A stretch of DNA of 64,000 nucleotides, taken from Kushneria sinocarnis. Lineage in GTDB: Bacteria; Pseudomonadota; Gammaproteobacteria; Pseudomonadales; Halomonadaceae. The position numbers and the translations under genes are program-made. The first letter of the stretch is position 1, and each line of letters opens with the position of its first letter. The notes beneath the pieces are model-generated. The model did no database searches, was not told the origin of the DNA, and worked only from the letters and a program-made list of their open reading frames with translations. Where the stretch lies: contig NZ_RBIN01000002.1 in NCBI RefSeq assembly GCF_003633775.1, positions 413,286-477,285 on the forward strand. The letters run 5' to 3'. Below, piece by piece: positions 47,340 through 61,069 of this stretch.

Positions 47340-48110
47340 TCAGCTACGCGCGGTTCCCCGGTTGCGCTGCCAGCGCTTCTCGTTGCGCCGCGCCTTCTGC
47401 ACAAAGGGCGACAGCCGGATCAGGGTGAAGGCAAGGCGGTTGACCAGCGAGGCCGGAAAACGCATCGGCCGCTCGACATCCATGAACAGCACGACCCGCT
47501 GGCCGTCGGTGTCGTTCCACACCTCGTGATCGAAGGTGTCATCGAAGATCATGCTGCGCCCCTCTTCCCAGTGCGCGATCTGTTCATCGACCCGAATGCG
47601 GCACTGTTCACGGGGCTCGGGCACCTGCAGGCCGAGGTGATAGCGCAGCACACCCTTGTAGGGTCCCCGGTGAGCCGGAATGTGCTTGCCCGGGGCGAGA
47701 ATCGAGAACATGGCGGTTTTCATGCCGGGCACCTGCTCGATCAGGCGCGCCGTCTCCGGACAGCGCTCGCAGTTCTCCTCCATGCGGTAGCCGTAACCAT
47801 AAAGGAAAAAGGTCTTCCACTGATCATCCTTCGACAGCCGCTGCTGGTCCTCGGAAATATCCTGGAAGTTGGGCAGCTGGTCGCGCTCGCGCAATACTTC
47901 ATCAAGTTCGGCACGAATCTTCTGCCAGTCGGCTTCCAGCGGCCCTGTCCAGCTGAACTGCGAAGCGTCAAAGAAGGCCCTGTCCCCGACCAGCGAGTGA
48001 CGGGCGATGAAACGGTCAATACCGACCAGCAGGCGCCGACCGACGCGTATATACCAGGGTTTGCGGCGTTTTCCGGCGCGCTCTTGCGCGGGGGCAGTGG
48101 AATCATTCAT
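47340..48110 (-). CDS. Aspartyl/asparaginyl beta-hydroxylase family protein (LpxO-like)
   Basis: 256 residues. The Fe(II)/2-oxoglutarate dioxygenase core is visible: SILAPGKHIPAHRGPYKGVLRYHLGL with the first His ligand, then SMIFDDTFDHEVWNDTDGQRVVLFMDVERP with the second His and the 2-oxoglutarate Arg. LpxO, from this family, hydroxylates the secondary acyl chain of lipid A. It sits 58 bases downstream of the lipid-modification operon (Tam41-like, lipid kinase, phosphatidyltransferase) on the same strand. A role in hydroxylating a sphingolipid or lipid A acyl chain is inference. Confidence 0.88.
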   Translation of the reverse strand: MNDSTAPAQERAGKRRKPWYIRVGRRLLVGIDRFIARHSLVGDRAFFDASQFSWTGPLEADWQKIRAELDEVLRERDQLPNFQDISEDQQRLSKDDQWKTFFLYGYGYRMEENCERCPETARLIEQVPGMKTAMFSILAPGKHIPAHRGPYKGVLRYHLGLQVPEPREQCRIRVDEQIAHWEEGRSMIFDDTFDHEVWNDTDGQRVVLFMDVERPMRFPASLVNRLAFTLIRLSPFVQKARRNEKRWQRNRGTARS

Positions 48111-48168: not shown

Positions 48169-49119
48169 CTAGCGCAGGATGCGATCGCGCAGCAGTCGCC
48201 ACAGCACCGGCCAGCCGAAGATCAGGGGGTATGAACGCAGGCGCGGCGTGACGGTGATCGTATGGCCGGTATGACGCCGCAGCTTCCAGGCGGCATAATC
48301 GACCCCGCCCTCGAAGGTCGTGATCGATTTCATCAGCCGCAGCACATGCAGCACACGGCCCTGGCGGCGACGCCAGCGCCAGCGCCGCTCGGCGCGGCGC
48401 CGATCACTGTCACGCGCATGATTGACGAACGCATCCGCCCCCTCGGCGTCGAGTGCGGGCAGCACTCCGGTCAGCGCACGCGCCAGCTGACGGTAATCCT
48501 CCAGACCGTCCCGGACCAGCAGCGCGGCACGGCCGCTGCCCTCGGGTCTCAATTCCACACCGTAGCTCAGCGCCAGTGCCTGCTGCCAGCCGGTCGCGGC
48601 ATCAAACCGCACCGGCAGGCACGGTAGCGCCTCGTGCCAGAGTCGGGTCACCGCGCCGGCCAGGGCGCCCTCCAGCCGCTCGCGCACGCCCTCGCTGCGC
48701 CAGAACACCAGCCGGCAGGGCTGGGAGAAACGCCCCCACAGATAGGACTCGAAGGCCCGCGTGCAGCCACGTTCGAAATCGGCGGTACTGACCACGGCAC
48801 ACTTGGCACGCAGGGTACGCTCGGCGGTGGCGTCGCCGGCTTCCAGATAAAAGACATTGGGGGGCAGCCAGCGGTTGACCAGCCGCCAGCTGTAGCGGGC
48901 ATAGATCCGGCGATAGTCATCGACCACGGCATAGAGATCGACCAGCCCCTCGCCGGGATCACCATCGCGCAGACAGGAGCCATAGAACAGGATCGCCTGC
49001 ACGGCGCTGCCGAAACGCTCGTGTACCCGGCGGATCAGCGGCTCGAGCGCGGCACCCACCGGACGCGCGCTCTGCTCGGCCACCACGGCCTGCAGACTGC
49101 CGGACGATTGCGGGTTCAT
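48169..49119 (-). CDS. Tam41/Mmp37-like nucleotidyltransferase (possible lipid-phosphate cytidylyltransferase)
   Basis: 316 residues. The N-terminal half looks like a nucleotidyltransferase: AILFYGSCLRDG (YGS at 46-48) followed by DLYAVVDDYRRIYARYSW (61-68 acidic). The stretches LPPNVFYLEAG, KCAVVSTADFERGC and ESYLWGRFSQPCRLVFW run in the same order as in the mitochondrial CDP-DAG synthase Tam41 (YGSG...D.V.VVDD...NYGAGVYYN...KYGVIS...L.GRLQKPV). The match is by eye and partial. Its start overlaps the stop of the lipid kinase gene, and the third gene of the operon is a CDP-alcohol phosphatidyltransferase. A CTP-dependent activation of a phosphorylated lipid is therefore plausible but unproven. 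Confidence 0.6.
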   Translation of the reverse strand: MNPQSSGSLQAVVAEQSARPVGAALEPLIRRVHERFGSAVQAILFYGSCLRDGDPGEGLVDLYAVVDDYRRIYARYSWRLVNRWLPPNVFYLEAGDATAERTLRAKCAVVSTADFERGCTRAFESYLWGRFSQPCRLVFWRSEGVRERLEGALAGAVTRLWHEALPCLPVRFDAATGWQQALALSYGVELRPEGSGRAALLVRDGLEDYRQLARALTGVLPALDAEGADAFVNHARDSDRRRAERRWRWRRRQGRVLHVLRLMKSITTFEGGVDYAAWKLRRHTGHTITVTPRLRSYPLIFGWPVLWRLLRDRILR

Positions 49120-50117
49120 TGCGTCACTCTCCCGAAAACACGAAAGTCGATCGGTCCGACGGCGCGTAGCGTCAGCCGCTGATCCGGCGTCGCCCCGGCA
49201 CAGGTGCCGTAGAGTTCACCATCCAGCATCCAGCCCTGGCCGAGTTCGAGCTCCAGCCACTCGGTGCGGGCACTCAAATAGCCGGACGCACCACGGGTCG
49301 CGGCACGCCCCCGGCCCATCAGTATCAGCGGCAGCCGCCACCAGGGCGCAGGCGCCTCCGCGCCCATCAGCGCCACGCCCAGACCGCCGCGGCCCTTTCC
49401 CCAGAAGGGGCGAGCCCCCAGCATCAGTCGGCTGAAGGTACTGACGGCTACCAGCCGACAGTCACCCTCGAACGCCTGGCCATCCTGCAGCCACAGCCGC
49501 GCAAGCGTTGCCGGCAGCAACGGGTGGCGACCGCCTCGCAGCAGTGTCAGGAAAAGTCGCAGGAAGGCCAGCCGCGGGCCCCAGCGCCCGGCCACCTGGT
49601 CACGCAGCCGCTGTTGAAAGAAGCTGACGCCACTGGTCAGCGCACCACCGCCGAAAAAGAAACCGCAGCGAGCGCGCCCGCCATCCTCGATCCGCACCAC
49701 CGGATGGACAACCCGGCGGGGCGCTTCTCCCCCGCGCTGCCAGGCAGCAGCGGCGGCCAGCGCCTCCAGCGGTCTGACCCGACTGCCCAGCGCCCGGGCG
49801 CTCATGTTGGTGGTACCGCCACCGACCACGAGCAGGGCCGGCCACTGCTCCGGGGGCAGCGCAAAACGCTCCAGCAGCAGCGTCAGCAGTGCCTGCAGGG
49901 TGCCATCGCCGCCGAGCACCATGATGCCCGCGACCCGGTCGCCCAGCCACTGCTGCAGCACCACCTCGATCGCTTCGGGATGACTCGCTTCACGATAGTC
50001 ACTGTCGGCAACTTGCGCTGCCCGCCGGCGAATGGCGGACAGCGAGCGCCGGCAGCGACCGCTGGCGGGATTGCAGAGAATGGCAAGCGTTCGAGGGCGA
50101 CTCCCACTGTCAGTCAT
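49116..50117 (-). CDS. DAG-kinase-like lipid kinase (candidate ceramide kinase)
   Basis: 333 residues of the DAGK catalytic family: LAILCNPASGRCRRSL at the N-terminus, the nucleotide loop VLGGDGTLQALL (GGDGT at 69-73), VVGGGTTNMSARALG, and the C-terminal sheet with GWMLDGELYG. Members phosphorylate diacylglycerol, sphingosine or ceramide; the Caulobacter ceramide kinase CpgB belongs to this family. The gene overlaps the phosphatidyltransferase by eight bases and the Tam41-like gene by four, so the three are made together. Next to a serine palmitoyltransferase operon, ceramide is the most attractive substrate, but that is inference. Confidence 0.85.
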   Translation of the reverse strand: MTDSGSRPRTLAILCNPASGRCRRSLSAIRRRAAQVADSDYREASHPEAIEVVLQQWLGDRVAGIMVLGGDGTLQALLTLLLERFALPPEQWPALLVVGGGTTNMSARALGSRVRPLEALAAAAAWQRGGEAPRRVVHPVVRIEDGGRARCGFFFGGGALTSGVSFFQQRLRDQVAGRWGPRLAFLRLFLTLLRGGRHPLLPATLARLWLQDGQAFEGDCRLVAVSTFSRLMLGARPFWGKGRGGLGVALMGAEAPAPWWRLPLILMGRGRAATRGASGYLSARTEWLELELGQGWMLDGELYGTCAGATPDQRLTLRAVGPIDFRVFGRVTQ

Positions 50118-51258
50118 TGGTGGTCACGAACCAGCGCACCACCAGCCGATGACGTTCGGCGCGGGGTTCCACCCGCGACAGCCAGGGAGTAACCGCCGCG
50201 CCGCGGCTGACCTGGCGCCGGGCCTGCAGGACCCGGATGATCAGCACCACGGTCGAGATGAGCGTCCAGAGCATGACCAGCAGCAACCCGGCATAGGGCG
50301 CCCCCAGCAGCCAGCACAGGGTCAGCAGCAGCAGGCAGGGGTTGCGGCGAGCGGTCACCAGGCGGTTGACCGAGTCGAACGGCTCCCAGATGAACATCGA
50401 AAACGGCCCGGCGGTCTTGAAGGCGACTTCCGACAGTCGGCCGCCGATATAGGCGATGAAGATCACCCAGTAGACGGCTACCGGCACCTGAGTCGCCAGC
50501 CCTACCCCCCAGGCGAGATACCAGAACGGCGGATGAACGATATCGAGAATGTGGTCGAACAGGTTACCGAAACGGCTGGAATTGAGCGTCACCCGCGCCA
50601 GCTTGCCATCCACGGTATCCAGGAAGGTCATCAGCCATGCGGCGAGCAGCCCGGGGCCGTAGGCGCCATACCAGAAGGCCAGACCGGCGAGCAGCGTCAG
50701 CAGATAGCTCAGCGCGGTGACGTGATTGGGACGAATGCCGCGCCGGGCACACACCCTTGTCACCGCCCGGGCCGGCAGCGGCCACACCCACTTGGTGATC
50801 AGATCGGTCACTCCCTTGTAGGCGGAGTCGTAGAGCGCATTCTCGATGCGCTCCCGGTCCCCCTGCGCCACCCGGGACACCCAGGGGGTATCGAACTTGC
50901 GCAGCTTCGACTGCAGCCCCAGGCCGATCCGATCCGGTGTCACCTCTTCCAGCCCGCCGGTATCGATGCCTGCCAGCTGCAACGCGTTCGCCGGGGCCTT
51001 CATGCGTACGGCCACCAGGGTATGATCGGCCGGGTCGCGCAGTGCGACCCGCTCGGCCTCGACCAGACCTTCGAGCACCCGCTGATCGAAGACATAGTCG
51101 CCGCGCAGCAGCAGCACTTCATCGCCTTCGGCAATGGCCGACTCATCGCTCAGGACAACACCCTTCATGCGCGAGAGCGCGCGTACCAGCCGTTCCCGGG
51201 GCGTCAGGCCCCAGATGCGGGTGGCGGTATCTTTTTCGAGCGCTGCCTTTACTGTCAT
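50110..51258 (-). CDS. CDP-alcohol phosphatidyltransferase with N-terminal nucleotidyltransferase-like domain
   Basis: 382 residues from ATG 51258 (a GTG at 51288 would add ten). Residues 1 to about 145 resemble the back half of an NTP-transferase (EVLLLRGDYVFDQRVLEGLV) but lack the G-x-G-x-R nucleotide loop. From about 150 on it is a membrane CDP-alcohol phosphatidyltransferase with the full motif DG-x2-AR-x8-G-x3-D-x3-D at 217-239 (DGKLAR...GNLFDHILD) and about six helices. It swaps CMP for an alcohol, forming a phosphodiester head group. Substrates are unknown; context suggests a sphingolipid. Confidence 0.88.
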   Translation of the reverse strand: MTVKAALEKDTATRIWGLTPRERLVRALSRMKGVVLSDESAIAEGDEVLLLRGDYVFDQRVLEGLVEAERVALRDPADHTLVAVRMKAPANALQLAGIDTGGLEEVTPDRIGLGLQSKLRKFDTPWVSRVAQGDRERIENALYDSAYKGVTDLITKWVWPLPARAVTRVCARRGIRPNHVTALSYLLTLLAGLAFWYGAYGPGLLAAWLMTFLDTVDGKLARVTLNSSRFGNLFDHILDIVHPPFWYLAWGVGLATQVPVAVYWVIFIAYIGGRLSEVAFKTAGPFSMFIWEPFDSVNRLVTARRNPCLLLLTLCWLLGAPYAGLLLVMLWTLISTVVLIIRVLQARRQVSRGAAVTPWLSRVEPRAERHRLVVRWFVTTND

Positions 51259-51360: not shown

Positions 51361-52353
51361 ATGACCTCATCGCTGTCGCGTCCGGCCTGGCGCCTGGCGC
51401 ATCTTTCAGATCCCCATTTTACCGTGCCCGAATGGCGACACTGGCGCGAAATGCTCAACAAGCGGGTGCCCGGCTACCTTGCCTGGCACCGGCGGCGACG
51501 TCACGTGCACCATCGGGCCATCCTGGATGCGCTGATGCAGGATATCTCTCACCAGCAGCCGGATCATGTGGCCCTGACCGGCGACCTGACCCAGCTGGGC
51601 CTTGCCGCGGAGTGCCGCCAGGCCCGCCACTGGCTCGAGCAGCTGGCGCCGGAAAGTAGCGTGACCATGTCGGTCATCCCCGGCAACCATGATACCTATG
51701 CCCCGGAGCCGACTGCTGTACCGCTCTCGCTGTGGGAGCCCTGGATGAGTGACGATCCGGACAGCACCCGGAAGGCGCCTGACCACCCCCGGCTGGCCGG
51801 GAGCCGCGACAACCGGGCCGCCTTTCCCTGGCTGAGACGCCGCGGCCGCATCAGCCTGATCGGCACCTCGACGGCGCTTCCCACCCCCTGGCCGATGGCA
51901 ACAGGCAGTCTGGGCAGCGCCCAGCTCGAACGCCTTGCCGCGTGTCTGCAGCATGCCGGACGGCGCGGCGACTACCGCATCCTGCTGATCCACCATGTGC
52001 CCTGTCGCGGCATGATTCACTGGCGCAAGCGGCTCACCGACATGGCGGCGCTGCAGGACGTCATCCGCCGTTACGGAGTCGAGCTGGTACTGCACGGTCA
52101 CGCTCATCGCCCGATGCAGGGCTGGCTGGAGACTCCGACCGGTCATGCCCCGGTGATCGGGGCCCCCTCGGCGTCACTGACCCCGCCGAAACAGGCCGGC
52201 TATGGCCTGTTCGACATCGCGCCGCACCCGCGGGGCTGGTCGACAACGGTGACATACCGTACCCTGAGCGGTCATTCCGGTCACTGGCATTTCACGACCC
52301 GAGGCTCGGCCCGGCTGCCGGACGTCACCGCACCGATCACTACCGCAGCCTGA
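51361..52353 (+). CDS. Metallophosphoesterase (calcineurin-like)
   Basis: 330 residues from ATG 51361; ATG 51343 is an alternative, and the much longer frame upstream is antisense to the phosphatidyltransferase. The five metal motifs are in order: LAHLSDPHF, LTGDLTQLG, VIPGNHDTY, LIHHVPC and LHGHAHRP. Such enzymes cleave phosphomonoesters or diesters, including lipid head groups and UDP-diacylglucosamine (LpxH type). It diverges from the phosphatidyltransferase over about 100 bases and precedes a nucleotidyltransferase. A role in head-group processing is inference. Confidence 0.9.
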   Translation: MTSSLSRPAWRLAHLSDPHFTVPEWRHWREMLNKRVPGYLAWHRRRRHVHHRAILDALMQDISHQQPDHVALTGDLTQLGLAAECRQARHWLEQLAPESSVTMSVIPGNHDTYAPEPTAVPLSLWEPWMSDDPDSTRKAPDHPRLAGSRDNRAAFPWLRRRGRISLIGTSTALPTPWPMATGSLGSAQLERLAACLQHAGRRGDYRILLIHHVPCRGMIHWRKRLTDMAALQDVIRRYGVELVLHGHAHRPMQGWLETPTGHAPVIGAPSASLTPPKQAGYGLFDIAPHPRGWSTTVTYRTLSGHSGHWHFTTRGSARLPDVTAPITTAA

Positions 52354-52435: not shown

Positions 52436-53230
52436 ATGAAGGATTCAGTCGTACGAACGCGACCACGACGCGCCATTATCCTGAGCGCCGGCCAGGGCAA
52501 GCGGCTGCTTCCCTATACCGCCGATCGGCCCAAGTGCCTGATCGAGCTCTCCGGCCGCGCCGTCATCGAACATCAGATCGACACCCTGCTCGCGGCCGGT
52601 TTCGAACGCATTACCGTCGTGCTCGGCTATGCCATCGATGTGGTCGAACAACGGCTGCGCCAGCGTTATTCGGACACCCTGCTCGACATCGTGTTCAACC
52701 CCTTCTTCGAGCTGGCCGACAACCTTGCCAGCTGCTGGATGGCACGCAACGCCATGCAGGAGGATTTCCTGATTCTCAATGGCGACACCCTGTTCGAACC
52801 CGCGGTGCTCGATCAACTGCTCACCTCGCCGCAGCAGCCGATCACCCTGGCCATCGACCACAAGGCGCACTACGACGCCGATGACATGAAGGTCACCGTC
52901 GAGGGTACGCGGCTGACCCGGGTAGGCAAGGCGCTGGCGCTGGATAGCATTGATGGTGAATCGATCGGCATGATGAGCTTCCGCGACAGCGGCCGCGAGC
53001 TCTTCCTGGAAGCGCTGGAGCGCAACATGCGCTCGACCCGGGCGCTGAGCCGCTGGTATCTCAGTGTCATCGATGAGCTTGCCGATCGTGGCGCGGTCCA
53101 TACTGCCTCGATTGACGGACTGCGCTGGGCCGAGCTGGATTTCCCCCACGATCTCGAACACGCGCGGGCACTGGTGCGTGACATCACGGCCAGCGCGAAC
53201 ACCACCACTCCCTCGCCGACCGATGGCTGA
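52436..53230 (+). CDS. LicC/IPCT-like nucleotidyltransferase
   Basis: 264 residues. The nucleotide loop is RAIILSAGQGKRLLPYTADRPKCLIEL, followed by RITVVLGYAIDVVEQRL, VFNPFFELADNLASCWMARN and DFLILNGDTLFEP. The arrangement matches phosphocholine cytidylyltransferases (LicC) and inositol-1-phosphate cytidylyltransferases rather than glucose-1-phosphate enzymes. It would make a CDP- or NDP-activated small alcohol. Such a product could feed the CDP-alcohol phosphatidyltransferase at 50110, though the two genes are divergent. The ATG at 52436 follows GAGAG. Confidence 0.85.
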   Translation: MKDSVVRTRPRRAIILSAGQGKRLLPYTADRPKCLIELSGRAVIEHQIDTLLAAGFERITVVLGYAIDVVEQRLRQRYSDTLLDIVFNPFFELADNLASCWMARNAMQEDFLILNGDTLFEPAVLDQLLTSPQQPITLAIDHKAHYDADDMKVTVEGTRLTRVGKALALDSIDGESIGMMSFRDSGRELFLEALERNMRSTRALSRWYLSVIDELADRGAVHTASIDGLRWAELDFPHDLEHARALVRDITASANTTTPSPTDG

Positions 53231-53258: not shown

Positions 53259-54080
53259 TCAGTGCTCGGCAGCGGCCGCCAGCAGGGCTTCCACGGCACG
53301 GCGATCCTCGGCGCTGTCGACGTCGACCGCCGCTTCCGGGCGCTCCAGCATGACGGCTCCGATACGCACTCCCAGCCGTGACGAGAGCCGGTTCAGCGCC
53401 TCCTCGAGGGTCAGCCGGCCGGCCAGATAGCGCAGCGCGCCGCGCATGCCCAGGGTGCCGGCGATCACGCGCCACGGCTTCTTGCGACTGTTTTCCACCC
53501 GCTGCCAGAATCCGGCCAGTTCACGCCCGGCCGGGGTCATGAAGGCGAACAGGTTACAGCCACAGACCGCCCCGTCGGCGAACCGGGTCGCGGTACGCCG
53601 CATCTCGGGAAAGCGCGCCATGATGGTCTCGTGGCGCACCAGTGCCACGGCAAAATCGAGCCCCCGGGCCCTCGCCGATTCAAGAAATTCATCCACCATT
53701 GCGCCATCAAGCAGCGCATGGTCGGCCGTGGTCAGCAGCACCGGCCGCTCGCGTTCGATTTCATCCAGCGCCGCTGCCGCACTGGCACTCGGTGAAGAGC
53801 GACTATCGTGCCAGTACCGTTCATCCGCTCCCAGCATCTCCGCCAGCGCCGGCTCGGCATCGACGATGGCCCGCGGCGGCCCGGCCAGATGAATGCGGCC
53901 GACATCGCGACTGGTTTCAAGAGCCCCCAGCACCCGTTCCAGCATGGCCACTCCAGCAATCGGCGCCAGTGCCTTGCAGCGGGTACCGGCATCGAGGGCC
54001 ACGGGGTCGCTGGCGCCGCGATCGGCTGCCAGTACCAGTGCATCGGCAAACGGCGCCTCGGCAGCAGCCTGCTGAGTCAT
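53259..54080 (-). CDS. MobA-like NTP transferase
   Basis: 273 residues. The N-terminal LVLAADRGASDPVAL...CKALAPIAGVAMLERVL is a modified form of the LAGGxGxRxxxKAL loop of MobA-like nucleotidyltransferases, and PVLLTTADHALLDGAMVDEFL holds the metal-binding Asp. The first Gly-rich loop is altered (AADRG for AGGRG), so the nucleotide specificity is uncertain. It converges with the LicC-like gene. It is the second nucleotidyltransferase in the lipid island; its substrate is not known. Confidence 0.8.
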   Translation of the reverse strand: MTQQAAAEAPFADALVLAADRGASDPVALDAGTRCKALAPIAGVAMLERVLGALETSRDVGRIHLAGPPRAIVDAEPALAEMLGADERYWHDSRSSPSASAAAALDEIERERPVLLTTADHALLDGAMVDEFLESARARGLDFAVALVRHETIMARFPEMRRTATRFADGAVCGCNLFAFMTPAGRELAGFWQRVENSRKKPWRVIAGTLGMRGALRYLAGRLTLEEALNRLSSRLGVRIGAVMLERPEAAVDVDSAEDRRAVEALLAAAAEH

Positions 54081-54436: not shown

Positions 54437-54907
54437 ATGAGCAGCGATTCCTCGGAGCTTCATCAGACGCTGCGTAAATTCGGCGCTCCTGCCAGTGTCA
54501 TCAGGGAGTATGAACACTGGAGCGTACTGTTGCGCCCGGCCCAGGCGACGCTCGGCTCGCTGGTGCTGGTCGCCCGCGGGACCCAGACCGAATTCTCTGC
54601 CCTGCCCCCGGCAGCCTTCGGCGAGCTGGCCACCGTCACCGCGGATCTGGAGCATGCGCTGCATCAAGCCTTCGACCATGACCGGCTGAACTATCTGATG
54701 CTGATGATGGTCGATCCACAGGTGCACTTTCACGTGCTGCCGCGCTACGCTCGCTCACGCGAATTTGCCGGCGTTACCTTTGCCGATCCGGGCTGGCCCG
54801 GCCCCCCTGAGCTGGGCCACACCACCGACACCGATGAAGCCACCCGGCAGACCCTGTTCGACGCCCTCGATGGCGCCTGGCCACGGAAGACATCTCCTTC
54901 GGGATAA
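54437..54907 (+). CDS. HIT-family hydrolase
   Basis: 156 residues with the histidine-triad stretch VDPQVHFHVLPRYAR (HFHVLPRY at 97-104). The motif has two of the usual three histidines in the HxHxHxx core. LLRPAQATLGSLVLVARG is typical of HIT proteins, which hydrolyse or transfer nucleotides such as Ap4A or nucleotidyl conjugates. It is the first gene in the plus-strand run towards the ceramide genes, 183 bases ahead of the acyl ligase. Confidence 0.85.
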   Translation: MSSDSSELHQTLRKFGAPASVIREYEHWSVLLRPAQATLGSLVLVARGTQTEFSALPPAAFGELATVTADLEHALHQAFDHDRLNYLMLMMVDPQVHFHVLPRYARSREFAGVTFADPGWPGPPELGHTTDTDEATRQTLFDALDGAWPRKTSPSG

Positions 54908-55090
54908 CCCGCTCGGTGTGGCTTCGCTCTTCCCGTCGCATGCGACCAGGGAAGTGGCCGATCGTTTACTCGGGAAACCGGTCATCTGCCGGTATTCAGG
55001 CCAGCAGCGGATCGGACAGGGCCGTCAGGAGCGATGCATGGCTCGGGCATGGTGTCCGACGTACGCTCCTTCAACAGGATGACATTGTTG

Positions 55091-56869
55091 ATGACCGAAT
55101 TATGTATCACCGCGACCCCGACCTTTAACAGCAGTCCTCAGCGCCTTGCCGACTTTGCCACGCTGGCAGAAGCGCTGGACTATGCCGCCGAAGGCTGCAC
55201 CGGGTTCAACTTTCATGACAACCGGGGTCGCCTGCTGGCACCGCTGGCCTATGTCGAGGTACGCCGCCGTGCACTTGATGCGGCCCGGCGCCTCAAGTCG
55301 CTGGGGCTGGAGCGTGGCGCCCGGGTCGCCGTAATCGCGGACACCGATCCGGCCTTCATGGAAATCTTCTTCGGCTGTCAGTACGCCGGACTGGTACCGG
55401 TACCGATGCCGATTCCGATGAGCATCGGCGGTCACGAGCGCTACGTGGCCCGGCTGGACCGACTGGTGGAGAGCTGCGAGGCCCGGGTCGCCATCGCTCC
55501 CACCCACATGGTCCGCTATATCGAGGAGATGCCTTCGGTCGATACGCTGGCCTTCCACGGGGATATCGAGGCCTTCCGGACACTGCCCGTGGAAGAGGGC
55601 ATGACGCTGGCGCCCTCGGGCCCCGACGAGATCGCCTACCTGCAGTACACCTCGGGCAGCACCGGCTTTCCGCGCGGCGTGGAGATCCGTCAGCACGCCA
55701 TCATGGCCAACCTGCGCGCCATTCTGGCGTCCGGCCTGGCCGTGCGCCCGCAGGACCGCTGCGTCTCCTGGCTGCCCTTCTACCATGACATGGGGCTGGT
55801 CGGCTTTGTACTGGGGCCCATGGCATCACAGCTCTCGGTTGACTATCTCGGGCCGCGGGAATTTGCCATGCGCCCCCGGCTGTGGCTGAGCCTGATGACC
55901 CGCAACCGGGGCAGCATCGCCTTTGCCCCTCCGTTCGGGTATGACCTCTGCACCCGGCGCCTGCACGGCAGCGACATCGATCGGCTCGACCTTTCCGCCT
56001 GGCGGGTCGCCGGTGTAGGCGCCGAACCGGTGCTGCCCGATGTGCTGGAGCGCTTTGCCGACCATTTTGCCGCCGCCGGGTTCGACCGCCGCGCCTTCCT
56101 GCCCAGCTACGGCATGGCGGAGAACTCGCTGGCCGTCAGCTTCGCACCGCTGGGCACCGGAATGTCGCTGGATCACGTCAATCGCGATGCACTCGAACAG
56201 CACGGGGAAGCGCGCGCACTCGACGATCCGGAAGCGGCAGAAGTCAATGCCACCAGCTTCGTCAACTGCGGTCACCCCCTGCCGGGGCACGACATCATCA
56301 TCCGTGACAGCGAAGGCCAGCCACTGCCGGAGCGTCATGTCGGCCGGGTCACCATTCGCGGTCCCAGTCTGATGAGCGGTTACTTTCGTGATCCCGAGCA
56401 GACCAGAAAGTCACTCGGCGACGATGGCTGGTTCGATACCGGTGATCTGGGCTATCTCACCAGCCAGGGGCTGCACGTCACCGGGCGCCACAAGGATCTG
56501 ATCATCGTCAACGGCCGTAACATCTGGCCGCAGGACATCGAGGCGCTGGCGTCCCGGCTGGCCGGCATCAACCGGGGAGAGCTCACGGCGCTGGCGCCAC
56601 CCGAAGAGGCGCCCGAGGTGGATGTGGTCGTGCTGGTCCAGACCACGCTCAGTGACGAGCAGGAAAGAGCCGCCCTGGTAAAGGAGATGGCGGCCGGCAT
56701 TCGCAGCGAGTTCGGCATCCGCTGTACGGTTTCGCTGCTGCCACCGCGCACCCTGCCGCGCACCTCGTCGGGCAAGATTTCCCGTAGCCAGGCGCGCCGC
56801 CAGTATGCCGCGCAGCTGCGGGAAGCAATGGGTGCCGCGCCCACCCCCAGTGCGGCCGCCTCATCTTGA
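55091..56869 (+). CDS. aasR: Fatty acyl-AMP/acyl-ACP ligase (AasR-like)
   Basis: 592 residues from ATG 55091; 55079 and 55034 are other in-frame starts, none with an ideal ribosome-binding site. ANL-superfamily adenylating enzyme. The AMP-binding loop is YTSGSTGFPRG (about 186-196), SWLPFYHDMGLVG is typical of fatty acyl-AMP ligases, and SYGMAENSLAVSF, DTGDLGY and the C-terminal SSGKISR lysine are present. In the ceramide pathway of Caulobacter an acyl-ACP synthetase (AasR) loads a dedicated ACP. Here the gene is followed by cerR-, acpR- and spt-like genes, supporting that role. Confidence 0.88.
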   Translation: MTELCITATPTFNSSPQRLADFATLAEALDYAAEGCTGFNFHDNRGRLLAPLAYVEVRRRALDAARRLKSLGLERGARVAVIADTDPAFMEIFFGCQYAGLVPVPMPIPMSIGGHERYVARLDRLVESCEARVAIAPTHMVRYIEEMPSVDTLAFHGDIEAFRTLPVEEGMTLAPSGPDEIAYLQYTSGSTGFPRGVEIRQHAIMANLRAILASGLAVRPQDRCVSWLPFYHDMGLVGFVLGPMASQLSVDYLGPREFAMRPRLWLSLMTRNRGSIAFAPPFGYDLCTRRLHGSDIDRLDLSAWRVAGVGAEPVLPDVLERFADHFAAAGFDRRAFLPSYGMAENSLAVSFAPLGTGMSLDHVNRDALEQHGEARALDDPEAAEVNATSFVNCGHPLPGHDIIIRDSEGQPLPERHVGRVTIRGPSLMSGYFRDPEQTRKSLGDDGWFDTGDLGYLTSQGLHVTGRHKDLIIVNGRNIWPQDIEALASRLAGINRGELTALAPPEEAPEVDVVVLVQTTLSDEQERAALVKEMAAGIRSEFGIRCTVSLLPPRTLPRTSSGKISRSQARRQYAAQLREAMGAAPTPSAAASS

Positions 56870-57786
56870 GATGCGTTGCGGTTACCGGGGCGACCGGCTT
56901 CATCGGCAGCGTCCTGTGTCCGGCGCTTGAACGGGCCGGTTACCGGGTACAGGCGCTGACCCGGCGCGAGCGCCGCGACAGCGAACGGATTCACTGGATC
57001 AGGGGCGGCCTTGATGACCGGCAGGCGCTGAAATCGCTGGTCACCGGCGCCGACTGCGTCATTCACTGCGCCGGCGCGGTACGGGGAGCCGATTACGAGT
57101 CCTTCCACGAGATCAATGCTGCCGGCACGCAGCGGGTCTTCGAAGCTGCCCGCAGCGAGGGCTGCGCTCACCTGCTACTGCTCTCCTCGCTGGCGGCACG
57201 CGAACCGGCACTCTCCTGGTACGCGCGTTCCAAGCAAGCGGCGGAACAGGAACTCGACGATCACGGCACACCAAGCGTGACCATCTTCCGGCCGCCGGCC
57301 GTCTATGGTCCGGGAGATCGCGAGTTGCGTCCGCTGTTCGAACTCATGCTGCGCGGCATCATGCCGATTGCCGGTGCCCCGAAGGGCCGACTGACCGTCA
57401 TCCATGTCCATGATCTGGTGCAGGCCATTCTGGCCTGGCTGCGCAGACCCGCCACCGGACGCGGGCCGTTCGAGCTTCACGATGGCGCAGCGGATGGTTA
57501 CACTTGGCCGCAGATTGCCGCCCTTGCGGCCCGGATGCGACAGGGAAGGGTGCTGTCACTGCCGCTGCCCGAAACACTGCTGCGTGCTCTGGCCCGAAGC
57601 AACCTGATGCTGGCCCGCTGCACCGGCCGAACACCAATGCTGACTCCCGGCAAGGTCAACGAGCTGCGCCACCCCGACTGGCGCTGCGACAATACGGCCA
57701 TCAGCGCAGCACTGGACTGGCAGCCGACCATCACGCTTGAACGCGCCCTGGCCGAACCGGGGCTCTGGCGTGATCCGGGACAGTAA
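56866..57786 (+). CDS. cerR: NAD(P)-dependent epimerase/reductase (CerR-like)
   Basis: 306 residues; the only sensible start is TTG 56866, overlapping the ligase stop as TTGA. Extended SDR fold: VTGATGFIGS (6-15), LLLSSLAA, and the catalytic pair Tyr119/Lys123 in SWYARSKQAAE. In Caulobacter, CerR of this family reduces the keto group of oxidised ceramide. The operon with acyl ligase, ACP and serine palmitoyltransferase makes this the best assignment, although the fold alone would also allow sugar epimerisation. Confidence 0.8.
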   Translation: MRCVAVTGATGFIGSVLCPALERAGYRVQALTRRERRDSERIHWIRGGLDDRQALKSLVTGADCVIHCAGAVRGADYESFHEINAAGTQRVFEAARSEGCAHLLLLSSLAAREPALSWYARSKQAAEQELDDHGTPSVTIFRPPAVYGPGDRELRPLFELMLRGIMPIAGAPKGRLTVIHVHDLVQAILAWLRRPATGRGPFELHDGAADGYTWPQIAALAARMRQGRVLSLPLPETLLRALARSNLMLARCTGRTPMLTPGKVNELRHPDWRCDNTAISAALDWQPTITLERALAEPGLWRDPGQ

Positions 57787-57849: not shown

Positions 57850-58098
57850 ATGACGCGACACGAACAGATACTCGAGCGACTGATGCAGCATCTTGAGCGT
57901 TTCAAATCGGAAAGCGGTGAGCTGCACGCCGATGCCGATCTGATCAATGAACTCGGCCTGGACTCGGTCAACGTGATGGACATGCTGCTCGAGATCGAGG
58001 ATGAATTCGACATCTCGGTGCCGATCAACATGATCACCGATGTCCGCACACCGCGCCAGCTGGCCGATGTCATCGTGAAGATCGAGAGCGGCGAATGA
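57850..58098 (+). CDS. acpR: Acyl carrier protein dedicated to sphingolipid synthesis (AcpR-like)
   Basis: 82 residues, acidic, with the phosphopantetheine Ser39 in GLDSVNVMDMLLEIEDEFD. The sequence is not that of the fatty-acid AcpP (DSLD). Its stop overlaps the serine palmitoyltransferase start (ATGA), so acyl carrier and condensing enzyme are co-translated. It probably brings the acyl chain activated by the upstream ligase. Confidence 0.9.
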   Translation: MTRHEQILERLMQHLERFKSESGELHADADLINELGLDSVNVMDMLLEIEDEFDISVPINMITDVRTPRQLADVIVKIESGE

Positions 58099-59309
58099 GT
58101 CTTTTCGACAAGTTTGACCGGGTGCGCGATGCCAGTGGCTCGCTGGCGCTGGACAGTGAACCCAGCCCGCTGGGGACCCGCATTGATGAAGTCCACTCCC
58201 CGACGCGTGGACGCATCGGCAACAGCGAGGTCATCCTGGCCGGCACCAACAACTATCTGGGGCTGACCTTTGATCCGGATTGCATCGCTGCCGCTCACCG
58301 GGCGCTCGATGAAGCCGGTACCGGTACCACGGGTTCACGCATGGCCAATGGCAGCTATGGCAGCCATCGCCAGCTGGAGCAGGAACTTGCCGAGTTCTAC
58401 GGCATGCCGTCGGCAATGGTCTTCTCCACCGGCTACATGGCCAATCTGGGGCTGATCACGTCGCTGCTCGGCCCGGGCGACAGCGTGATCCTCGATGCCG
58501 ACTGCCATGCCAGCATCTATGATGCCTGCCGCATGGCCGGCGCCGATGTCATCCGCTTTCGCCACAATGACGCCGAAGACCTCGACAAGCGACTGCGCCG
58601 ACTCGCCGATCGCCGCGAAGACGGACTCGACAATGCCCTGATCATCGTCGAGGGCATCTACAGCATGCTCGGCGATCGTGCCCCGCTGACCGAGATCGCG
58701 GAAGTCAAGCGGCGCCGGGGTGGCTATCTGCTGGTGGATGAAGCCCACTCCATGGGCGTGATGGGCGCGACCGGCCGTGGCCTTGCGGAAGCCGTCGGGG
58801 TCGAGGCCGATGTCGACTTCATCGTGGGCACCTTCAGCAAGAGCCTGGGCGCCATCGGCGGTTTTGCCGTCAGCCGTCATCGGGATCTGGAGCTGGTGCG
58901 TTTCGACAGCCGCCCCTATATCTTCACGGCCTCCCCCTCGCCCGCCACGATTGCTTCGGTACGCGAGGCGCTCGCCATCGTGGCGCAGCGTCCGCAACTG
59001 CGCGATCAGCTCTGGCGCAATGCCGAACGTCTCTATGCCGGGCTGCAGGAGCAGGGCTTCGAACTCGGACCAACGCCGGGCCCGGTGGTCGCGGCACTGG
59101 TCGAGTCACCCCGCCAGGCAATCGCCTTCTGGCATGCCCTGATCGAGCACGGTGTCTACGTCAACATGATGCTGCCACCGGCTTCTCCCAACGGTCGTGC
59201 CCTGATGCGCATCAGCCTCAGTGCCGCGCACAGCGATGAGCAGGTCGATGCCATCCTGGACGCCTTTGCCACGCTGGGCTCGATGCTCGATCCTTCCACT
59301 CCGGCGTAA
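58095..59309 (+). CDS. spt: Serine palmitoyltransferase
   Basis: 404 residues of the alpha-oxoamine synthase family. PLP-binding Lys249 lies in GTFSKSLGAIGGF; Asp215/His218 in LLVDEAHSMGVMG; His138 in DADCHASIYD. The N-terminal NNYLGLTFDP and GTGTTGSRMANGSYGSHRQLE are closer to bacterial serine palmitoyltransferases than to KBL or BioF. It condenses serine with an acyl thioester to 3-ketosphinganine, the committed step to sphingolipids. Coupling with an ACP and CerR-like reductase supports this over the related amino-acid enzymes. Confidence 0.9.
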   Translation: MSLFDKFDRVRDASGSLALDSEPSPLGTRIDEVHSPTRGRIGNSEVILAGTNNYLGLTFDPDCIAAAHRALDEAGTGTTGSRMANGSYGSHRQLEQELAEFYGMPSAMVFSTGYMANLGLITSLLGPGDSVILDADCHASIYDACRMAGADVIRFRHNDAEDLDKRLRRLADRREDGLDNALIIVEGIYSMLGDRAPLTEIAEVKRRRGGYLLVDEAHSMGVMGATGRGLAEAVGVEADVDFIVGTFSKSLGAIGGFAVSRHRDLELVRFDSRPYIFTASPSPATIASVREALAIVAQRPQLRDQLWRNAERLYAGLQEQGFELGPTPGPVVAALVESPRQAIAFWHALIEHGVYVNMMLPPASPNGRALMRISLSAAHSDEQVDAILDAFATLGSMLDPSTPA

Positions 59310-59356: not shown

Positions 59357-61069
59357 ATGAAACTGCTGCTCGCCTTTTTCCGACTCTACCCCCGACGCAC
59401 CGCCATCATGCTGATCTGTCTGCTGTTTGCAGGGGTCGCCGAGGGCGTCGGACTGACCACGGTACTGCCACTCCTGAGTGTCGCACTGGGTCAGGAACAC
59501 GATACCGACGGTTTCTCCGCCCGGGTGATCGAAATCATGAATTCGATCGGGCTGCCCACTACCATCGGCGTCATTCTGAGCATCATTGTCATCGGCATGA
59601 CACTCAAGAGTGCGCTGGTACTGCTGGCCAACCGTCAGGTCGGTTACGCCGTGGCCCGCGTGGCCACCGACCTGCGCCTCGAGCTGATCCAGTCGCTGCT
59701 TTCCAGCCGCTGGGAGCACTACCTGCGCCAGCCGGCCGGCAGCATCGCCAACTCAGTGGCCACCGAAGCCACGCGTGCCGCGACCGGCTATCAGTACTGC
59801 GCCACGGTGATTTCGCTCGCCATCCAGGTGGTCGTCTATGTCGTGGTCGCGATGATGATCAGCTGGCAGGCGACCCTGGCCTCGCTGGCGCTGGGACTGT
59901 TCATGTCGGTCGGGCTCTACCAGCTGGTGGCCGCTGCCCGCAGGGCCGGCAAGCAGCAGACCCGGCTGATGCGCGATATCCTCTCGCGCCTGACCGATAC
60001 CCTGGCATCGGTCAAGCCGCTCAAGGCGATGGCACGTTATGACGTGGCCGACACCCTGCTGCGCCGCCAGACCCGGCGTCTCAATCGGGCCATGGAGCGT
60101 CAGGTCATGGCGCGCGAGGCGATGAAAGCCTTCCAGGAACCGATCATGACCCTGTTCATCGCCGTCGGCCTCTACCTGGCACTGGAGGTCTGGGGGCAGT
60201 CACTGCCTTCGGTGATGGTCATGGTCTTTTTGCTGGCACGCGTGGTCATGCAGCTCAACCAGCTGCAGCGACGCTATCAGCAGATGCAGACCCAGGAGAG
60301 TGCCTACTGGGCCCTCAAGGATGTGGTGCATGCCGCCCGGGCCAATGCGGAACCCGCCGGTGGTGACCGCCTGCCCACCCTGGAACGGGAAATTGCCTTC
60401 CGGGACGTGCGCTTTCACTACGGCGAACACACCATTCTCGGCCAGACCGATCTGGTCATTCCGGCGGGCACCTTCGTGACCATTGTCGGCCCCTCCGGAG
60501 CCGGCAAGACCACCCTGCTCGATCTGCTGTGCATGCTGCTCGAGCCCACCCAGGGCAATGTTCACATCGACGGCATTCCGACCTCGGAAATCGATCGCAT
60601 TGCCTGGCGCAAGATGATCGGTTATGTGCCGCAGGAAACCCTGCTGCTGCACGACAGCGTGCTGGCCAATGTCACCCTCGGCGACCCCTCGCTCACCGAG
60701 GAGGATGCCGAGCGTGCCCTGCGTCAGGCCGAAGCCTGGGACTTCGTCAGCAACATGGCAAACGGCATGCACGACTCCGTGGGCGAACGCGGCAACCGCC
60801 TCTCGGGCGGCCAGCGCCAGCGTATCGTGATTGCCCGGGCGCTGGCCCATCAACCCCGGCTGCTGATTCTCGATGAGGCGACCAGCGCGCTCGACCCTGC
60901 TGCCGAAGCCTCCATCAGTAAAACGCTGCGGGGGCTGAGCAACCAGCTGACCATCGTCGCCGTGTCCCACCAGCCGGCGCTGGTACAGGCCGCGGATATC
61001 GTGTATCGACTGGAACAGGGTCAGCTGGCCCGGGTTGAGAAACAGGCAGCCGATAACACGCCGGTATGA
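59357..61069 (+). CDS. ABC exporter, fused membrane and ATPase domains (MsbA-like)
   Basis: 570 residues. About six membrane helices in the first 300 residues are followed by an ATPase domain. The Walker A is GPSGAGKTT (378-386), the signature NRLSGGQRQR, and the Walker B LLILDEATSALDP; the Q-loop is VPQETLLL. Half-transporters of this type flip lipids or export glycans and peptides. It lies 47 bases after spt on the same strand and may move the sphingolipid product or a glycan; the substrate is unproven. Confidence 0.9.
   Translation: MKLLLAFFRLYPRRTAIMLICLLFAGVAEGVGLTTVLPLLSVALGQEHDTDGFSARVIEIMNSIGLPTTIGVILSIIVIGMTLKSALVLLANRQVGYAVARVATDLRLELIQSLLSSRWEHYLRQPAGSIANSVATEATRAATGYQYCATVISLAIQVVVYVVVAMMISWQATLASLALGLFMSVGLYQLVAAARRAGKQQTRLMRDILSRLTDTLASVKPLKAMARYDVADTLLRRQTRRLNRAMERQVMAREAMKAFQEPIMTLFIAVGLYLALEVWGQSLPSVMVMVFLLARVVMQLNQLQRRYQQMQTQESAYWALKDVVHAARANAEPAGGDRLPTLEREIAFRDVRFHYGEHTILGQTDLVIPAGTFVTIVGPSGAGKTTLLDLLCMLLEPTQGNVHIDGIPTSEIDRIAWRKMIGYVPQETLLLHDSVLANVTLGDPSLTEEDAERALRQAEAWDFVSNMANGMHDSVGERGNRLSGGQRQRIVIARALAHQPRLLILDEATSALDPAAEASISKTLRGLSNQLTIVAVSHQPALVQAADIVYRLEQGQLARVEKQAADNTPV

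Follow-up and report, generated by a model that had tools for sequence, protein, structure and literature searches.

The stretch of DNA analyzed here (hereafter, the window) comprises 64,000 nucleotides of the genome of Kushneria sinocarnis and contains three minus-strand genes, between positions 48169 and 51258, that overlap one another by 4 and 8 bases. An initial annotation had described them as one operon coding for a lipid kinase, a Tam41-like protein and a CDP-alcohol phosphatidyltransferase (CDP: cytidine diphosphate), possibly forming a route through CDP-ceramide. The overlapping operon is real, its coordinates and strand were confirmed, and the three protein assignments were borne out by Pfam matches, predicted fold and profiles. 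The genes are homologues of cpgC, cpgB and cpgA of Caulobacter, and the cluster in which they lie is homologous to the Caulobacter cluster for ceramide phosphoglycerate (CPG) and CPG2, its products here being predicted from the genes.

In this report, we describe the gene set, gene order, predicted folds and co-occurrence of this cluster, whose proteins would act as counterparts of those of Caulobacter. On balance, and with considerable room for doubt, we favor a scheme for Caulobacter-type clusters in which CpgB and then CpgC lead to CDP-ceramide, and CpgA and CpgD serve a later extension of the headgroup.

Comparison with the Caulobacter CPG/CPG2 cluster

The Caulobacter cluster (cpgA to cpgD, within CC_1168 to CC_1152) was compared with the window by means of locus L109, whose CpgC is 78% identical to Caulobacter vibrioides protein P0195 and 81% identical to that of Caulobacter segnis; the CpgC of the window shares 33% identity with P0195. 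The genes of L109 run in the order aasR, cerR, spt (serine palmitoyltransferase), cpgC, cpgB, cpgA, phosphoesterase, HIT, bCerS and NT2, with an open reading frame (ORF) labeled LptF/G preceding bCerS. This is the order given for CC_1165 to CC_1153 in PMC11324152, where CC_1162 is spt; the other ceramide gene names were matched by order, as was the HIT gene after the phosphoesterase, which occupies the CC_1157 position. Homologues of aasR, cerR, acp, spt, cpgC, cpgB, cpgA, the phosphoesterase, the HIT protein, CC_1153 and cpgD are all present in the window, where the ceramide genes likewise adjoin the headgroup genes.

The arrangements also differ. In the Caulobacter-type loci L109 and L110, cpgC and spt are immediate neighbors on opposite strands. 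The window shows a rearranged order, with spt at the distant end of the cluster. The window further differs from the Caulobacter cluster in lacking LptF/G, in having a beta-hydroxylase gene after cpgC and in having its bCerS homologue (45% identity) on a different contig (L130:7859-9022, contig G000:C5). Among the genomes tested for it, a bCerS homologue was found in all six with spt and in none of eight spt-less relatives. In Salinicola (L002), unlike in the genome of the window, the ceramide synthase stays within the cluster.

Orthologues of the Caulobacter cluster are reported to be contiguous in Azotobacter vinelandii and Pseudomonas luteola (PMC11324152). Their loci in our set (L013 and L008; CpgC 55% and 50% identical) contain cpgA to cpgD, NT2 and, up to the end of the locus, the first ceramide genes, without the phosphoesterase.

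Within the genus, cpgC was found in only two of 10 species, including the organism of the window, and the closest named CpgC proteins are from Halomonas and Salinicola. Import of the cluster, judged by base composition, received no clear support: GC content in bins is 0.609 to 0.672 across the cluster and 0.627 to 0.698 in the remaining window.

Features of the cluster are listed in Table 1. The 80 named loci referred to below are the best 80 of 516 confirmed relatives, a set that leans to close relatives of the window. A beta-hydroxylase gene is close to cpgC in 23 of these 80; as a guess, the enzyme in the window may hydroxylate the acyl chain of ceramide.

Table 1. Genes of the predicted ceramide and headgroup cluster, in window coordinates
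Feature	Position	Strand	Evidence
Aspartyl/asparaginyl beta-hydroxylase, immediately downstream of cpgC	47340..48110	-	PF05118 E 8.5e-61
CpgC homologue, Tam41-fold nucleotidyltransferase, predicted CTP:ceramide-1-phosphate cytidylyltransferase	48169..49119	-	Predicted fold, profile
CpgB homologue, DAGK_cat lipid kinase, predicted ceramide kinase	49116..50117	-	PF00781 E 9.6e-13; GGDGT at residue 69
CpgA homologue, membrane CDP-alcohol phosphotransferase with N-terminal cytidylyltransferase-like domain lacking the usual nucleotide-binding signature	50110..51258	-	
Calcineurin-like phosphoesterase, CC_1158 position, divergent from cpgA	51361..52353	+	PF00149 E 1e-12; 43% identity to L109 copy
CpgD homologue, predicted phosphoglycerate cytidylyltransferase	52436..53230	+	NTP_transf_3/NTP_transferase; PDB 4jd0 (IMPCT) second sequence match, E 2.3e-11
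NT2, CC_1153-type MobA-like nucleotidyltransferase	53259..54080	-	PF12804 E 1.3e-11; profile to 2dpw TTHA0179 E 1.3e-40
HIT-domain protein	54437..54907	+	PF01230 E 5.6e-6; 47% identity to L109 copy
Fatty acyl-AMP ligase, ceramide operon (aasR type)	55034..56869	+	NF006624 777.8 bits, cut-off 600
NAD-dependent epimerase/reductase, ceramide operon (cerR type)	56866..57786	+	PF01370 E 1.2e-28; position as in L109 and L110
Acyl-carrier-like protein (acpR type)	57850..58098	+	82 aa, LGLDSVN; 4-base overlap with spt
Serine palmitoyltransferase (spt)	58095..59309	+	NF047599 618.3 bits, cut-off 500
ABC exporter, MsbA/HepA type, possible lipid flippase	59357..61069	+	PF00005, PF00664; NF045513 and TIGR02203 under cut-off

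CpgC and CpgB

The predicted structure of CpgC has Tam41 as its best fold match, well ahead of every other fold, and the similarity spans 231 residues at about 17% identity. The CpgC profile and SpTam41 have in common K106, a YLxGRFxxP stretch, Y186 and R191. The Tam41 family PF09139 is matched by 44 of 52 CpgC homologues and not by the CpgC of the window. When the PDB was searched with the single CpgC sequence, nothing relevant was found; the profile search of the PDB returned Tam41. A Pfam search for Tam41 in the window's own genome gave no match, but it gave none in controls either and is therefore uninformative, so it was replaced by the profile and fold comparisons. At the level of predicted fold, the Tam41 likeness proposed in the initial annotation is thus confirmed. 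Tam41 makes CDP-diacylglycerol from phosphatidate and cytidine triphosphate (CTP) (PMC7018664). CpgC resembles this synthase (Tam41/TAMM41) in predicted fold and in the conserved K, GRF and Y/R residues, but it adjoins a ceramide kinase homologue and spt, and its predicted substrate is ceramide-1-phosphate.

A Pfam scan of the other two proteins identified a DAGK catalytic domain in CpgB, with its GGDG motif; in CpgA, the C-terminal half matched the CDP-alcohol phosphotransferase domain. CpgB of the window is predicted to phosphorylate ceramide by analogy with Caulobacter CpgB (CC_1160), a proven ceramide kinase (PMC10331486). The motif GGDG[TS] is present in 54 of 65 ORFs labeled cpgB. Wherever cpgB was found at more than 60 bits in the 80 named loci (66 of 66), it immediately precedes cpgC, and the two genes are neighbors in 19 of the 20 loci fetched from the genomes sampled below.

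Distribution of cpgC and its partners

We searched 398 genomes of the phylum with E thresholds of 1e-10 for cpgC, 1e-75 for spt, 1e-20 for cpgA, 1e-25 for cpgD and 1e-12 for NT2. The last three genes were sought in the 37 genomes that have cpgC or spt, not in the 361 with neither, and cpgB was not searched genome-wide. The cpgC gene is present in 27 genomes and spt in 36; 26 have both, as compared with 2.4 expected (Fisher value 1.6e-31, which is nominal because related genomes are not independent). The sole cpgC genome without spt, G345, carries, close to cpgC, a gene with weaker similarity to spt (32%) and another resembling bCerS (33%). Thus, rather than occurring widely in genomes without spt, cpgC is accompanied by it in 26 of 27 cases, in support of a sphingolipid role.

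Among the 80 named loci, again at more than 60 bits, 27 contain both cpgA and cpgD, 18 contain cpgA alone, 35 contain neither and none contains cpgD alone; weaker cpgD-like matches are present in L032, L045 and L061. In the 51 of these loci that extend 9.5 kb or more to each side, we found cpgB in 44, NT2 in 41, bCerS in 46, LptF/G in 49 and cpgA in 34. Four loci (L063, L068, L070 and L080; three Haliea/Halioglobus records and one gammaproteobacterium) contain cpgB-cpgC but no match to ceramide synthase inside the locus. Their neighbors, which we labeled by reading the sequences, presumably include several sulfotransferase-like and glycosyltransferase-like genes and an LptF/G-like gene, and these clusters possibly make another lipid.

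The same data bear on a glycerolipid reading of the cluster, in which CpgB would be a diacylglycerol kinase and CpgC a second CDP-diacylglycerol synthase. Caulobacter CpgB acts on diacylglycerol in vitro with comparable activity (PMC10331486), and phosphatidate is the substrate of Tam41 itself (PMC7018664). Against this stand the tie of cpgC to spt and the presence in the window's genome of a CdsA-family protein (PF01148), which means that a second CDP-diacylglycerol synthase is not needed. Moreover, deletion of cpgB in Caulobacter left phosphatidate unchanged (PMC10331486), and the CC_1161 (cpgC) mutant lost CPG, as did a mutant lacking both CC_1159 and CC_1160, in which CC_1160 by itself was enough to restore it (PMC11324152). 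We therefore regard a glycerolipid cluster as very improbable. The operon content and the spt tie instead make ceramide-1-phosphate followed by CDP-ceramide plausible, so that this part of the route proposed initially is supported, together with the Tam41 fold; its final step, assigned to CpgA, conflicts with Caulobacter genetics and with gene distribution.

CpgA and CpgD

In the initial annotation, CpgA was to replace the cytidine monophosphate (CMP) of the CDP-lipid with a polar alcohol. In Caulobacter, however, CpgA (CC_1159) is required for CPG2 but not for CPG (PMC11324152); CpgD (CC_1152) makes CDP-glycerate, and CpgA and CpgD are both required for CPG2 (PMC12275187). The distribution of cpgA agrees poorly with an obligatory step after CpgC: it is present in 10 of the 37 genomes, all of which have cpgC, and is absent from 17 of the 27 cpgC genomes. 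The same 10 genomes have cpgD, and none of the 27 others does (nominal value 1.2e-7 for cpgA versus cpgD within cpgC genomes, with the same caveat about relatedness). Because CPG forms without CpgA in Caulobacter and cpgA is found only alongside cpgD, CpgA more likely uses CDP-glycerate than CDP-ceramide. CpgA as the enzyme that completes a simple CDP-ceramide pathway was accordingly dropped.

The motif DGxxARx8GxxxDxxxD is present in all 35 CpgA rows, and the membrane fold of Class I CDP-alcohol phosphotransferases was matched. The nearest relatives, AF2299 and IPCT-DIPPS, match CpgA along its full length, including the N-terminal cytidylyltransferase-like domain; as described in PMC4634129, these enzymes do not process lipids. 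The usual cytidylyltransferase signature is found in none of the 35 CpgA N-terminal domains, in 24 of 27 CpgD ORFs and in one of 52 NT2 sequences. CpgA was for this reason not filed as IPCT-DIPPS. Since NT2 also rarely has the signature, its loss is by itself no proof of inactivity, and the N-terminal domain of CpgA is possibly a dead domain that keeps the shape of a cytidylyltransferase. CpgA differs from AF2299 and IPCT-DIPPS in lacking the signature, and this function may have passed to CpgD, a separate protein. The structural top match reported for CpgD is 4jd0 (IMPCT), and its preferred substrate is D-2-phosphoglycerate (PMC12275187). The genome of the window codes for five CDP-alcohol phosphotransferases, including CpgA.

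In two Nitrospirales loci, L074 (7713-8942 and 11205-12431) and L078 (7713-8942 and 11152-12393), two full-length cpgA genes flank cpgB-cpgC, and the motif is complete in all four.

A linear pathway, in which CpgB makes ceramide-1-phosphate, CpgC makes CDP-ceramide and CpgA exchanges CMP for a soluble alcohol, would account for the gene overlaps, for the six-helix form of CpgA, as in soluble-acceptor enzymes, and for the paired cpgA genes of the Nitrospirales loci. We nevertheless consider it a poor prospect, given that CPG forms without CC_1159 (PMC11324152), that 17 of 27 cpgC genomes lack cpgA and that cpgA is always accompanied by cpgD in the sample.

NT2 and the missing transferase

If CpgC makes CDP-ceramide, CMP must then be replaced by glycerate. 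In 11 of the 17 cpgC genomes without cpgA, just two PF01066 proteins are present, and these score like PgsA and PssA, labels that we consider putative; the other six have three to five. Among the loci without cpgA in a set of 21 that were fetched, we looked for an additional gene in common, and no transferase stood out. By our reading of the sequences, families present in at least three of these loci presumably include an LptF/G-like protein, a possible flippase, a protein resembling fatty-acid hydroxylases and a small exported protein.

NT2 was found in all 27 cpgC genomes and in none of the 10 spt genomes that lack cpgC, and among the genes searched genome-wide (spt, cpgA, cpgD and NT2), it alone follows cpgC without exception. 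The NT2 profile, A4, consists of the window row and eight rows from tested genomes (L109, L111, L113 and L119-L123), which match by construction; the remaining 18 of the 27 positive genomes are outside the profile. The nearest solved relative of NT2 by profile, over 248 profile positions, is TTHA0179. Judging by its locus prefix, we take this protein to come from Thermus thermophilus HB8. In the acidic glycolipid of that strain, the 2-OH of D-glyceric acid bears the phosphate (PMC3398001); this lipid is the major phospholipid in Thermus and Meiothermus strains, and a related lipid exists in Deinococcus (PMC3035268). Together with the preference of CpgD for D-2-phosphoglycerate, this makes a common role of NT2 and TTHA0179 in glycerate headgroups a fair lead. 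The Thermus/Deinococcus lipid resembles CPG in its phosphate-to-glycerate headgroup, but it is built on diacylglycerol, not ceramide, and nothing in our data places TTHA0179 in its pathway. Among the best 120 of 1724 proteins in a search with the NT2 profile, none was named as Thermus or Deinococcus, which adds no further support. Also, because Caulobacter without CC_1153 still makes CPG, the common role in glycerate headgroups is unproven.

These results also suit a mechanism in which CpgC releases no CDP-ceramide and joins glycerate to ceramide-1-phosphate in another way, for example with nucleotide-activated glycerate from NT2. The strict association of NT2 with cpgC, the 11 genomes in which no dedicated CDP-alcohol phosphotransferase is apparent and the relationship to TTHA0179, with the D-glycerate lipid of the presumed source organism, are all compatible with it. 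Loss of CC_1153 in Caulobacter, however, increases CPG and abolishes CPG2 (PMC11324152). Furthermore, Tam41 transfers CMP onto a phosphate, and direct attachment was rated energetically not very favorable in PMC11324152. We judge this mechanism unlikely, although less so than the linear pathway.

Proposed pathway

In the scheme that we favor, CpgB would phosphorylate ceramide, and the Tam41-fold CpgC would combine the resulting ceramide-1-phosphate with CTP, so that the likely product of CpgC is CDP-ceramide. Glycerate would then replace CMP to give CPG, for which NT2 is the leading candidate partner. Finally, CpgD is predicted to make CDP-glycerate, which CpgA would use to add a second phosphoglycerate, converting CPG to CPG2; CC_1158, whose position is occupied by the phosphoesterase, also contributes to CPG2 in Caulobacter (PMC11324152). 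Caulobacter CpgC (CC_1161) is needed for conversion of ceramide-1-phosphate to CPG (PMC12275187, PMC13228409), a step whose mechanism the figure legends of these papers (2025 and 2026, respectively) describe as unidentified. The idea of an activated ceramide is not new. In 2024, CC_1161 was reported to carry a CDP-diacylglycerol-synthase InterPro domain, and ceramide activated with a nucleoside diphosphate by CpgC was suggested (PMC11324152). The novelty inferred in the initial annotation is therefore not supported: the Caulobacter-type cluster is known, and the central idea was already in print as a suggestion.

Several points weigh against the scheme. A Tam41 fold is not enough to establish the substrate, and the window's own CpgC has no Pfam match at all. 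In vitro, Caulobacter CpgB accepts diacylglycerol as well (PMC10331486). The whole of CpgA can be aligned with six-helix enzymes; as six-helix members take soluble acceptors and lipid-acceptor members typically have three to four helices more (PMC4634129), this argues against CPG, a lipid, as the acceptor of CpgA. A dedicated transferase for the step after CpgC is not apparent in the 11 genomes mentioned above. LptF/G, present in 49 of the 51 well-covered loci, is absent from the window, where only a 27-residue chance stretch was matched; LptC and the rest of the genome were not searched. Finally, a search of open-licence literature found no assay of CTP with ceramide-1-phosphate.

A broader reading would join these elements. 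Proteobacterial phosphosphingolipids would be built on CDP-ceramide by a core of CpgB, CpgC and NT2, with NT2 as a member of a D-glycerate headgroup family also represented in Thermus and Deinococcus, and CpgA and CpgD would be an optional add-on that lengthens the head. We offer this tentatively, as possible but doubtful in its entirety.

Conclusions

The pathway of the window belongs to the known Caulobacter CPG/CPG2 type, for which CDP-ceramide has already been suggested. Beyond a remark on Zymomonas, two points are new: the counts that separate core from extension modules, and the link of cpgC with NT2. We met neither in the literature consulted, although no dedicated literature search was made for either. 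With these distribution data, NT2 becomes a better place to look for the missing transferase than CpgA and, in many genomes, than a dedicated CDP-alcohol phosphotransferase of any kind. The lipids concerned are of physiological importance, in that viability of Caulobacter without lipopolysaccharide depends partly on these acidic sphingolipids (PMC12275187). If CDP-ceramide exists, it would be an activated lipid whose backbone is neither diacylglycerol nor archaeol, and the textbook logic of CDP-activated lipids would extend to sphingolipids.

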